A program made the position numbers and the translations under genes. From Bacilli bacterium (lineage in GTDB: Bacteria > Bacillota_I > Bacilli_A > RF39 > UBA660): a stretch of DNA of 43,892 nt. The stretch covers positions 1 through 43,892 of the forward strand of contig JAFOMI010000053.1 of the NCBI GenBank assembly GCA_017418945.1, read 5' to 3'. Shown here in pieces: positions 901 to 6,487 of the stretch. How positions within the stretch are numbered: the first letter of the stretch is position 1; each line of letters opens with the position of its first letter. A model generated the notes under the pieces. It made no database searches. It was not told the origin of the DNA and worked only from the letters and a program-made list of their open reading frames with translations.

Positions 901-929
901 TTGACAAAGATAAAAATACTAGATATACT
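901..929 (+). promoter_or_regulatory. Consensus sigma-A promoter
   Basis: A perfect -35 box TTGACA (901-906), a 17-base spacer and a -10 box TATACT (924-929). The predicted start near 935-937 falls at the first base of the structured leader, so the whole leader would be transcribed. The same box pair with the same spacing recurs at 18514-18542. Confidence 0.85.
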
Positions 930-933
930 TATA

Positions 934-1033
934 GCAGTGAGGAGATATAAACTAACTAGTGAGCTATCTCGGGATAAAACCTACACGCATGTAACGCGGA
1001 GTCGCTGTAAAAAGTTGATTTCGCGTTTTTTTT
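934..1033 (+). promoter_or_regulatory. Structured leader with intrinsic terminator; unassigned riboswitch or attenuator candidate
   Basis: The leader can fold as a three-way junction. P1 is GCAGTGA (934-940) with TCGCTGT (1002-1008), P2 is GAGATA (942-947) with TATCTC (965-970), and P3 is TACA (982-985) with TGTA (990-993) closing a CGCA loop. A competing hairpin, AACGCGGAGTC (993-1003) with GATTTCGCGTT (1017-1027), has 11 bp including two G-U pairs. It runs into eight T residues (1026-1033), a classic intrinsic terminator. Terminator and P1 share bases 1002-1003, and terminator and P3 share 993, so the folds exclude each other. I do not recognise a known riboswitch, T-box or ribosomal leader in it. 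The controlled gene starts 39 bases past the T run. Confidence 0.65.
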
Positions 1034-1072
1034 CCAAACACGAAATAACTAATTAAGAGGAGGATTTTAAAA

Positions 1073-1579
1073 ATGGAAAAAGCATTAAACGTTGATAGTA
1101 GTTTTTTTAAGAAATGCAAATACAATGTATTTGATCAATATGAAGAAATAACAAATGAAAACCAAAAGAAAAATGAAATAATAGAGGTTAAAGAAATATC
1201 TAAAAAATTATGTGAAGAAAAGAATATAAATGTGAATAGATTAGTTCTTAAAGAATTAGAAGAATTAGGATTTAAAAAAGATCTACCATCATTCTTTTTA
1301 TCAAAGATAATAGAAGAATTTTATCATGAAAGAGAAGCTTTTGATGATTCTGAATATTTTGATTTAAGTTTTTCAAATAATGAACATTATTCTAGTTTAC
1401 AAAATAAGTACTGTATTTACCCTTTAGAAGCTTATAGAGGATTCGTTGCAAAAGCAGTAGGTGAATCATCTTATGAAAACAAAAATATTAATGATGTTGT
1501 ATTTGATTTAGTTAAGAGAGTTTCAAAAAAAATAGAAGCTTCAAAAAAATTAACTTTAGAAAATAAAGAGAGTGATTAG
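1073..1579 (+). CDS. Unknown 168-aa protein controlled by an attenuator-like leader
   Basis: Start ATG at 1073 with AGAGGAGG at 1056-1063. The protein is soluble and charged, with no signal peptide or membrane segment. Residues 60-130 carry ELGFKKDLPSFFLSKIIEEFYHERE and later NKYCIYPLEAYRGFVAKAVGE. The order of these two helix-rich stretches loosely recalls the C-terminal DNA-binding domain of Spo0A, but identity is low and receiver residues are absent; treat this as a hint only. It is co-transcribed with the acetyltransferase that begins 1 base after its stop. The upstream terminator-bearing leader implies regulated expression. Confidence 0.7.
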   Translation: MEKALNVDSSFFKKCKYNVFDQYEEITNENQKKNEIIEVKEISKKLCEEKNINVNRLVLKELEELGFKKDLPSFFLSKIIEEFYHEREAFDDSEYFDLSFSNNEHYSSLQNKYCIYPLEAYRGFVAKAVGESSYENKNINDVVFDLVKRVSKKIEASKKLTLENKESD

Positions 1580-1580
1580 T

Positions 1581-2123
1581 ATGTATTTTAAAAAGATTGA
1601 GGGAGAAAGAATATATCTTTCACCAGTAGACATAAATGATGCTGAAAAGTATGTTAAATGGTTATCTGACAGAAGTGTAACTAATGGAATTAGACAAACA
1701 AGAAAAATTATTAATACTGTTGGAGAAAAAGAATGGCTTTCTAAAATATTAGAAAAGGGTGAATATACTTTTGGTATTATAGATAAAAATACTGATGAAT
1801 TAATTGGAAACTGTGGAATAATGAATGTAAATGAAATTGATGGAACAGCAACTTTAGGTATTTTTATTGGGGAAGAAGATTATAGAAATAAAGGAATAGG
1901 TAAAGAAACATTAAATCTATTATTAGATTTTGGTTTTAATCAATTAAGACTACACAACATTGATTTAGGCGTATTTTCTTTTAATGAAAGAGCAATATCA
2001 TGCTATAAAAAAATAGGTTTTAAAGAATATGGAAGAAGACATGAAGCATACTTTATGGATGGAAAATGGTTTGATATTATAGAAATGGAAATGTTAGAAG
2101 AAGATTATAAAAATAAAAAGTAG
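1581..2123 (+). CDS. GNAT-family N-acetyltransferase (RimJ/RimL type)
   Basis: 180 aa. The sequence has the layout of RimJ/RimL-like acetyltransferases: an N-terminal GERIYLSPVDINDAE segment, a central GNCGIMNVNEIDGTATLGIFIG strand pair, and the acetyl-CoA pyrophosphate loop YRNKGIGKE (Q/RxxGxG/A). It ends with NERAISCYKKIGFKEYGR. Such enzymes move acetyl from acetyl-CoA to an amine on a protein, antibiotic or small metabolite; the substrate is not evident. An upstream in-frame GTG at 1572 exists, but ATG 1581 fits better with the AGAGAGTG site 6-13 bases ahead. It is likely translated from the same mRNA as the preceding gene. Confidence 0.88.
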   Translation: MYFKKIEGERIYLSPVDINDAEKYVKWLSDRSVTNGIRQTRKIINTVGEKEWLSKILEKGEYTFGIIDKNTDELIGNCGIMNVNEIDGTATLGIFIGEEDYRNKGIGKETLNLLLDFGFNQLRLHNIDLGVFSFNERAISCYKKIGFKEYGRRHEAYFMDGKWFDIIEMEMLEEDYKNKK

Positions 2124-2145
2124 GCATTTAAAATGTCTACTTTTT
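2115..2145. terminator. Bidirectional terminator between convergent genes
   Basis: AAAAAGTAG at 2115-2123 pairs with CTACTTTTT at 2137-2145. The stem continues inward through G-T, C-G, A-T, T-A and T-A to a three-base loop, about 14 bp in all. A-rich and T-rich flanks allow it to stop transcription both from the acetyltransferase (+) and from the GH25 lipoprotein (-), whose stop codon overlaps it. Confidence 0.8.
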
Positions 2146-3354
2146 ATAATATATATCTATATCAACATCACCATCAATACCATCGATTTTACCATCACTA
2201 CACATTTGCCACATTATATAATCACCAGTATATGTAGTTTCGTCGGTATAGTGTGCAAGCCATACAGGATATGTATCATTTAACCATACTTTTTCTAAAT
2301 AGTTTTTACTACTATAAAGCATTACTTCATATCCATCTTCATTAACTATTCTATAAAACTCGTTTATGTAATTCATTAAATCATATGTATTAAGTTTTAA
2401 TTCTCTTATATCTGACCATGATTCAAAATCATATGCAATAGGAAAGTCTAACTTTTCTTTTTTTAATTCCTTTTTTATAAATTTAGCTTGTTTAATTATT
2501 TCATCTTTTTTAGATGCTGATGTATAAACATATACGCCAACTTTTAATCCTGCTTCTTTAGCTTTTTTTAGATTTTGCTTGAAATAAGAATCTAATCCTA
2601 TTTCATCATTTGGCCCATTACTAACAGCCATTCTAATAATAACAAATTCACAACCAGCATTTTTAATTTTATTAAAATCAATATCTCCTTGCCATCTTGA
2701 TATATCTATTCCAATCATAGTATCTTTAGTTTTGTATTTATTAATAACATCACTAAATAATATTCCTGCTTCTTCATCTTCATATTCATCATTTTCATTA
2801 ACTAATTCATCTATAGAATCATCTTTTATTTCATTTGGATCAGATATAGTTAAAGTAAAACTTTCAGTTGTTTTATTATTAGAACTATCATAAAAAACAT
2901 ATTCTAAATTATAAGTTCCAGGTTTGTTTAAATCATAATCATTCATTATTTTACATTTAACTTTTCTATCATAATTATCAATAAAACTAGCATGAGAACA
3001 AAAATCATCTACATCATCTTTAATAGTGTAATTATATTCTTTTGGTGCATGAAGAGTAATAGGAGGTTTAGTATCTATTATTTTATATGTAACGTCATAT
3101 TTATAGTCTCTATTTTTATATTTATATTTTATTGTAACCTTATTTTCTCCTATTTTAGATGTATTTAATTCTTCTTTCAAATTTGTAATTTTTACATTCT
3201 TTTTTACAATTAATTCTTTAACTAAATGTTTGTCATATACTTCAAAAGAGGAGTCTTTTATCTCTATATATACCTTTTTTGGCATCTTGTATTCATCATA
3301 AAAAGTACATCCTGTAATGAAAAATATAAAAATAATAACGAGTAGTTTTTTCAT
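2137..3354 (-). CDS. GH25 (lysozyme-type) lipoprotein with Ig-like domain
   Basis: 405 aa. Starting at the ATG at 3354 gives a lipoprotein signal: MKK, a hydrophobic run, and the lipobox ITGC. A GGTGAT site sits just upstream, so the longer frame from 3378 is unlikely. After a 70-residue spacer comes a DUF5011/Ig-like segment (KPPITLHAP...YNLEYVFYDSSNNKTT). The last 200 residues form a GH25 muramidase domain with IGIDISRWQGDIDF, FVIIRMAVS, VGVYVYTSA, the catalytic-type AYDFES (DxE) and WLAHYTDE near the end. It probably hydrolyses peptidoglycan beta-1,4 bonds at the outer membrane face, in remodelling or defence. It is expressed alone, divergently from the ribosomal operon. Confidence 0.88.
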   Translation of the reverse strand: MKKLLVIIFIFFITGCTFYDEYKMPKKVYIEIKDSSFEVYDKHLVKELIVKKNVKITNLKEELNTSKIGENKVTIKYKYKNRDYKYDVTYKIIDTKPPITLHAPKEYNYTIKDDVDDFCSHASFIDNYDRKVKCKIMNDYDLNKPGTYNLEYVFYDSSNNKTTESFTLTISDPNEIKDDSIDELVNENDEYEDEEAGILFSDVINKYKTKDTMIGIDISRWQGDIDFNKIKNAGCEFVIIRMAVSNGPNDEIGLDSYFKQNLKKAKEAGLKVGVYVYTSASKKDEIIKQAKFIKKELKKEKLDFPIAYDFESWSDIRELKLNTYDLMNYINEFYRIVNEDGYEVMLYSSKNYLEKVWLNDTYPVWLAHYTDETTYTGDYIMWQMCSDGKIDGIDGDVDIDIYYKK

Positions 3355-3457
3355 ATAATCACCATTTTTATTATACATGAAATAAAACTTTAAGTAAATT
3401 GAATTAAAGGGTAGGTTTACATCAAAAAAAAGAATTTGCGAAAAATGAAAAAAAGTG

Positions 3458-3486
3458 TTGATTTTACTAGAAAAAGTTGCTATAAT
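3458..3486 (+). promoter_or_regulatory. Promoter of the S10-spc-alpha operon
   Basis: TTGATT (3458-3463), 17 bases, TATAAT (3481-3486), predicting a start near 3493. No other promoter of this quality was noticed before rplQ, so this is likely the main promoter for all 29 downstream genes. Confidence 0.8.
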
Positions 3487-3492
3487 TATCTA

Positions 3493-3617
3493 TGTGTGAC
3501 TGGCGAAGATATGCAAGGTTGCTGATACACCAGGTTAAGTTGCTATTTAAAATATAGTTAAAATCGGGTAATTAGGTTTTTGCATGGAGCAAGTCTATAC
3601 AAGATATAGGCGAAGGG
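3493..3617 (+). promoter_or_regulatory. S10-operon leader RNA (probable ribosomal-protein leader)
   Basis: About 125 transcribed bases precede the rpsJ ribosome binding site and contain several local stems: GTGT (3494-3497) with ACAC (3527-3530), TTGC (3580-3583) with GCAA (3589-3592), and CTATA (3595-3599) with TATAG (3605-3609). The GC content and organisation exceed those of other intergenic regions here. Firmicutes are known to carry a conserved leader upstream of rpsJ, thought to mediate feedback by a ribosomal protein, and this segment fits that role by position. No T-run terminator is seen inside, so control would act on translation or by another mechanism. Confidence 0.6.
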
Positions 3618-3627
3618 AGGATTAACG

Positions 3628-5659: not shown

Positions 5660-6487
5660 ATGGCTATTAAACATTTTCGTCCAATAACACCTGGACAAAG
5701 AAAGAAAAGTACATTAGTAAATAACGAGCTAACTAAAACAGCTCCAGAAAAAAGTTTACTAAAAACTTTAAAAAAGAATAGTGGACGTAATAATTTAGGG
5801 AAAATAACTGTTAGACATCAAGGCGGCGGAGAAAAAAGAAAATACAGAATTATTGATTTTAGAAGAAATAAATTTGGTATTGAAGGTACAGTTGCTACTA
5901 TTGAATACGATCCAAACAGAAGTGCAAATATTGCATTAATTAATTATGCTGATGGTGAAAAAAGATATATTATCGCACCAAAGGGATTAAAAGTTGGAAT
6001 GAAAGTTATATCTGATGAAAAAACTGACGTTAAAGTTGGTAATGCAATGAGATTAATGAATATTCCAGTTGGTACAACAATCCACAACATTGAATTAACA
6101 TTAGGTAAAGGTGGACAAATAGCAAGATCTGCTGGACAAAGTGCTCAAATTCTTGGTAGAGAAGATAAATATGTATTAATTAGATTATCTTCAGGAGAAA
6201 CAAGAAAAGTACTTGGAACATGTATGGCTACTATCGGTGAAGTTGGTAATGAAGATTATTCATTAGTAAGACTTGGTAAAGCTGGTAGAACTAGACATAT
6301 GGGTATCAGACCTACAGTTAGAGGATCTGTTATGAATCCAAATGACCATCCACATGGTGGTGGTGAAGGTAGAACTCCAGTTGGTCATAAGAAACCAATG
6401 ACTCCATGGGGTAAACCTGCACTTGGTTACAAAACTCGTAAAACTAAGAAGAGTTCAACAAAATTAATTGTTACTCGTCGTAAATAA
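5660..6487 (+). CDS. rplB: 50S ribosomal protein L2
   Basis: 275 aa, full length. Contains the conserved C-terminal stretch [18 protein letters not shown] with the peptidyl-transferase-associated His, then [13 protein letters not shown]. The N-terminal [14 protein letters not shown] is typical. L2 is a primary 23S rRNA binder needed for subunit association. An AGGAGG site precedes it, 11 bases after rplW. Confidence 0.98.

Follow-up and report, generated by a model that had tools for sequence, protein, structure and literature searches.

We describe a structured leader RNA at positions 934–1035 of the plus strand of the window, the 43,892-nucleotide stretch of DNA analyzed here. The core of this RNA (934–1008), a putative aptamer, is a four-way junction that shares bases with an intrinsic terminator immediately downstream. 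Comparison of 133 non-redundant copies, gathered from one family of Bacilli and from Clostridia, indicates that the leader is probably a cis-acting transcription attenuator of the ON type, most plausibly a riboswitch. The preliminary description of this DNA had proposed an orphan attenuator with mutually exclusive folds, a proposal that is strongly supported by the recurrence of the element, by covariation and by the overlap with the terminator. Judged from the sequences, attenuation itself appears close to certain.

In the window, the leader is preceded by a sigma-70-type promoter (TTGACA-17-TATACT, 901–929, plus strand), which matches the consensus at 11 of 12 positions, is the top-scoring site within the first 4 kb and lies where it had originally been placed. 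Transcription is expected to start at about 935–936, at the foot of P1. The junction, all on the plus strand, is formed by P1 (934–940/1002–1008), P2 (942–947/965–970), an internal loop (948–950/961–964) that separates P2 from P2b (951–953/958–960), P3 (971–973/980–982) and P4 (986–988/996–998), with G941, ACA (983–985) and GAG (999–1001) as joiners. P1 and P2 are as first drawn; both form when the leader (931–1010) is folded, and both are upheld by comparison. The segments taken at first for GC-rich linkers are not linkers; they correspond to P3 itself and to the 3′ strand of P4 with the joiner that follows it.

The intrinsic terminator (993–1033, plus strand) consists of a stem (993–1003/1017–1027) and a U-run of eight residues (1026–1033), again as initially proposed, and is contained in the minimum-energy fold of 931–1040. 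It overlaps the 3′ strands of P4 and P1, and bases 1002–1003 are indeed common to P1 and the terminator. The folding energy is only marginally unusual, with z-scores of −1.95 (931–1040) and −1.42 (931–1010); it is the comparative evidence that places the window leader far beyond chance. Foldings and the alignment of four congeneric leaders also suggest a possible second hairpin (1013–1050, plus strand), in which the 3′ arm of the terminator pairs with later bases (GUU..AAC plus UUCG/CGAA) and which is kept in all four leaders.

A Shine-Dalgarno-like AGGAGG (1058–1063, plus strand) precedes the first gene, which encodes a 168-aa protein (1073–1579, plus strand). The second gene of the putative operon encodes a RimJ/RimL-like GNAT N-acetyltransferase (1581–2123, plus strand). 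On the minus strand, the operon is flanked by a divergent gene for a YlmH-like RNA-binding (S4-type) protein (154–834) and by a gene for a GH25 lysozyme-like protein with a lipoprotein-like N-terminus and Ig-like repeats (2137–3378). Further along, a promoter-like TTGATT-17-TATAAT with a TG before the −10 box, and a leader of about 140 nt (3458–3627 together), lie ahead of the S10 ribosomal operon; none of the ribosomal leaders in Rfam matched there.

In three congeneric species, homologs of the 168-aa protein follow a nearly identical leader. A covariance model (R1) built from the window leader and these three relatives gave hits in 25 of 193 genomes from the window's family, representing 21 genera. 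When one genome per species was scanned with a degenerate pattern and a second model (R2) was then run, many gut Bacilli and roughly two dozen Clostridia joined the set, including the isolate Anaerobacterium chartisolvens DSM 27016, whose copy lies at 5979–6088 of L067 on the minus strand. With a third model (R3), the element was detected in 22 of 391 genomes from the class of A. chartisolvens and in 7 of 398 genomes of a phylum-wide sample. Six of the 395 genomes sampled from the window's class carry it, all from the window's own family, with no copy in other families of Bacilli in that sample. Conservation of the leader, on which the preliminary description had made its proposal depend, extends well past close strains and reaches another class.

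Some of the 133 copies derive from fragmented MAGs. The genome to which the window belongs (an 868-kb assembly, 85% complete) yielded no further copy, either by DNA similarity or with the model. The strict pattern had no match in IMG/VR, and phage and plasmid collections gave no blastn match to one clostridial copy, a probe that is weak for a short RNA. Pattern matches in a Verrucomicrobiaceae MAG (L057) and a Burkholderiaceae MAG (L087) were missed by the model and were treated as chance. Two switches in series appear to be common: in 14 same-strand pairs, both copies occupy one leader and are no more than about 180 nt apart, and in 12 further pairs a gene-sized gap separates them (tandem examples include L014, L015, L022, L046, L048, L062, L064 and L091, among others). 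Four clostridial copies (L043, 65–238; L059, 5770–5936; L085, 3493–3659; and L088, 2649–2822) contain an insert of roughly 60 nt at the position of P2b, which resembles an added structured domain.

The aligned copies define a four-way junction with a core of roughly 70 bases. P1 has the consensus GYGA/UCRC and P3 GGG/CCU, while P4 is mostly CGN/NCG or, alternatively, CAA/UUG. P2 is free in sequence with an A-U at its end, the internal loop has the consensus UAA/GAGC, and P2b is variable. The joiners (G, none, ACA and GAG) are 97–100% conserved. In an alignment of 109 distinct sequences, 96.0% of the cells are paired and 16 of the 19 pairs show changes on both sides, with a covariation score of 0.493; shuffled alignments score 0.207, and sliding gives no more than about 0.10. 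Covariation, which had been suggested as a check on the proposed helices, is strong in P1, P2, P2b and P4; changes in P3 are mostly one-sided. As the structure itself guided this alignment, we complemented it with a test that needs no alignment, which covers P2 only. Across the 100 copies with P2 between fixed anchors (25 distinct arm pairs), 498 of 500 positions (99.6%) are complementary, compared to 65.9% with shuffled partners.

The elements of the expression platform recur along with the junction. The best sigma-70-type promoter upstream of the copies scores on average 10.2 out of 12, compared to 8.0 for shuffled sequences, and among the 110 copies with a score of 9 or more, 103 have a −10 box that ends 3–10 nt before the element, which would put the start of transcription at P1. 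In 130 of 132 anchored copies, a hairpin of terminator type leads into a U-run, with a median energy of −18 kcal/mol compared to −6 kcal/mol when the downstream arm is shuffled. Of the four P1 3′ bases, three or more are paired to the downstream arm of the terminator in 118 of 130 copies (38% with a shuffled arm). The 3′ triplet of P4 also falls within the terminator stem in most copies, while still complementary to the 5′ strand of P4; the main exception is the CAA/UUG copies, in which the terminator starts at the P1 strand. In 123 of 125 copies the fold of lowest energy is the terminated one, and closure of P1 costs a median of 10 kcal/mol. The leader shows two traits expected of a transcription-attenuating riboswitch: a conserved, structured, aptamer-like domain in a 5′ leader, with a promoter upstream and a gene downstream, and a terminator that is mutually exclusive with the aptamer through the 3′ strands of P1 and, mostly, P4.

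The genes that follow the element are diverse, with GNATs and DrrA-like ABC ATPases as the predominant types. Acetyltransf_1 (GNAT) matches were found in 32 of the 107 first downstream ORFs, and ABC ATPases account for another 22, with the daunorubicin-resistance type DrrA leading among the matches listed. At least 5 of the 107 match class I methyltransferase models, and nucleotidyltransferases, S51 and S66 peptidases and MFS transporters are also found downstream. An ANT(6) aminoglycoside adenylyltransferase, scoring above the curated cut-off, is located further along one clostridial operon. The L085 gene (1937–3382, minus strand) encodes a class I methyltransferase fused to a RimJ-like GNAT domain; the product of L090 (747–2288, plus strand) begins as a class I methyltransferase and resembles the L085 fusion by sequence and length. 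The genes downstream of the leader are of a kind that exports or chemically modifies toxic compounds.

In gut Bacilli, many leaders precede small proteins like the 168-aa protein of the window. While the acetyltransferase of the preliminary description stands as a GNAT, its "unknown protein" now has a predicted fold, in which residues of about 51–153 resemble the C-terminal domain of Spo0A. The predicted structure (pLDDT 84) aligns with the Spo0A DNA-binding domain (1fc3 and 1lq1) with a VIA-align Z of 11.4 and an rmsd of 2.3 for 94 residues, and the next unrelated row scores 4.2; the corresponding Foldseek match is weak (E 0.34). The predicted fold is that of the Spo0A effector domain, but identity is only about 10–16%, the receiver domain is absent and no sequence model matches: Spo0A is not among the Pfam and NCBIfam matches of the protein, and a sequence search for solved relatives returned only insignificant matches. 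Based on the predicted model, the protein may be a regulator with a putative DNA-binding function. Small, receiver-less Spo0A-C-like proteins recur among the gut Bacilli of the window's family, and their genes are often followed directly by one for an ABC exporter with a separate leader copy (e.g. L019, L021 and L031).

In the mechanism that we propose, transcription would start at the foot of P1 and the compact four-way-junction RNA would fold first. As the polymerase advances, the 3′ strand of P1, and mostly that of P4 too, would pair with the bases that follow and form the terminator; this terminated state is the more stable one, and the default would be OFF. A signal, most likely a small molecule, would be bound by the nearly invariant bases of the junction and internal loop. 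Binding would keep P1 and P4 shut and block the terminator, and the operon would then be transcribed. The ON direction is suggested by the folding energies and by the type of gene controlled. We infer that a ligand exists and that it binds the RNA directly; that it is a small molecule is likely, and that it is antibiotic-like is a plausible guess. As the genes would export or modify toxic compounds, a compound of this sort, or a metabolite indicating its effect, is the probable signal.

More tentatively, and with rather less confidence than in the attenuator itself, the element may represent an undescribed Bacillota riboswitch class that responds by direct sensing to an antibiotic-like compound, or to some general sign of its action, and activates a shared set of resistance-type genes. 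This set would comprise acetyltransferases, ABC and MFS exporters, methyltransferases, nucleotidyltransferases including ANT(6) and, in gut Bacilli, the receiver-less Spo0A-like proteins. The device is of an ordinary kind, a folded sensor competing with a terminator, yet it is structurally distinct and well supported, with a striking set of genes. If the reading is correct, it adds an uncatalogued structured leader RNA, represented by well over 100 copies, whose fold is defined and whose expression platform is clear, and which occurs both in uncultured gut Bacilli and in one or more cultured clostridia. The gene set would point to RNA sensing of toxic compounds, and many uncharacterized GNATs and exporters would gain a shared regulatory context.

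The diversity of the downstream genes counts to some extent against a ligand, since it could also fit a signal mediated by a protein or by the ribosome. The attenuator would then be real, with its junction recognized by a protein, such as an RNA-binding antiterminator, or controlled by a drug-stalled ribosome, and the various resistance-type genes would answer to a general stress signal. Leader-peptide attenuators are, moreover, the usual device upstream of such genes (PMC5418344). However, no conserved upstream ORF was identified: a start codon with a ribosome-binding site occurs in 14 of 133 copies, where about 20 are expected by chance. The near-invariant bases of the junction and internal loop are also as found in ligand-binding aptamers, and no recurrent RNA-binding protein gene was noticed beside the element, a point that comes from inspection rather than a systematic search. 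We consider control by a protein or the ribosome unlikely.

It is very improbable that the element is a trans-acting small RNA of about 100 nt from promoter to terminator, with its position upstream of genes being incidental. Such an RNA would have its own promoter and terminator, as this one does, but the first same-strand ORF begins within 150 nt of the element in 103 of 133 copies, the gene types recur across classes and copies occur in tandem in one leader. Additionally, the competition between terminator and P1 would be unneeded by a small RNA.

A divergent copy of a known class (guanidine-IV/Gd4v, ykkC, yybP-ykoY, NiCo or T-box) would be still more surprising, and we give this reading hardly any credence. 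The Rfam search proposed in the preliminary description returned no match for the leader in Rfam 15: at the gathering threshold, no family matches the leaders scanned, and relaxed scans of four copies, with E up to 10 (window and L067) or 2 (L112 and L022), gave only chance-level matches and none of these families. The same library did detect a T-box and a c-di-AMP riboswitch at other positions in the loci examined; T-box (RF00230) had no match in the leaders, the one detected in L049 being unrelated. The open-access literature contained no description of the motif, a scope that leaves subscription papers and preprints aside and allows for an earlier description. The context of GNAT and efflux genes does resemble that of Gd4v, whose ligand is unknown and which is common in gut bacteria (PMC9788692). 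Guanidine-IV and Gd4v consist of two hairpins, of which the 3′ one is the terminator, and a pseudoknot that connects them (RNA Biol. 2022, PMC9788692). They share with the mechanism proposed here a folded RNA that competes with a terminator upstream of GNAT and efflux genes. However, the present leader has a four-way junction separate from the terminator, and its main gene partners are an ABC-2 exporter, GNAT and Spo0A-like proteins rather than a transaminase or sugE; identity with these classes was rejected on the two-hairpin pseudoknot architecture, which the leader lacks, and on the absence of an Rfam match. The three-way junction of the preliminary description, with P3 at 982–985/990–993, is virtually untenable: these four bases can pair in the window, but UACA (982–985) is invariant while its 3′ partner UGUA is missing in some relatives (e.g. 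L003 and L004), and comparison gives instead a four-way junction with a different P3 and an additional P4, paired in 100% and 95% of alignment cells, respectively.

ON riboswitches for toxic ligands, such as guanidine, fluoride and Mn2+, use the bound aptamer to block a default terminator before export or detoxification genes. The same logic is proposed for the leader described here, which differs in having no sequence-structure match to these classes in the Rfam scans of four copies. Leader-peptide attenuators of antibiotic-resistance genes control similar downstream genes and also use a terminator platform, but they need a translated leader peptide, and none is conserved at this leader. The integron "aminoglycoside riboswitch" was proposed as RNA control of aminoglycoside-modifying enzymes (PMC7588185) and is disputed (PMC9410878). 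Natural RNA sensing of antibiotics is contested in the integron case, and the present leader offers a clean, testable system. The two are alike in that one operon under the leader carries ANT(6); the present leader differs as an attenuator on the chromosome of Bacillota that is supported by covariation.
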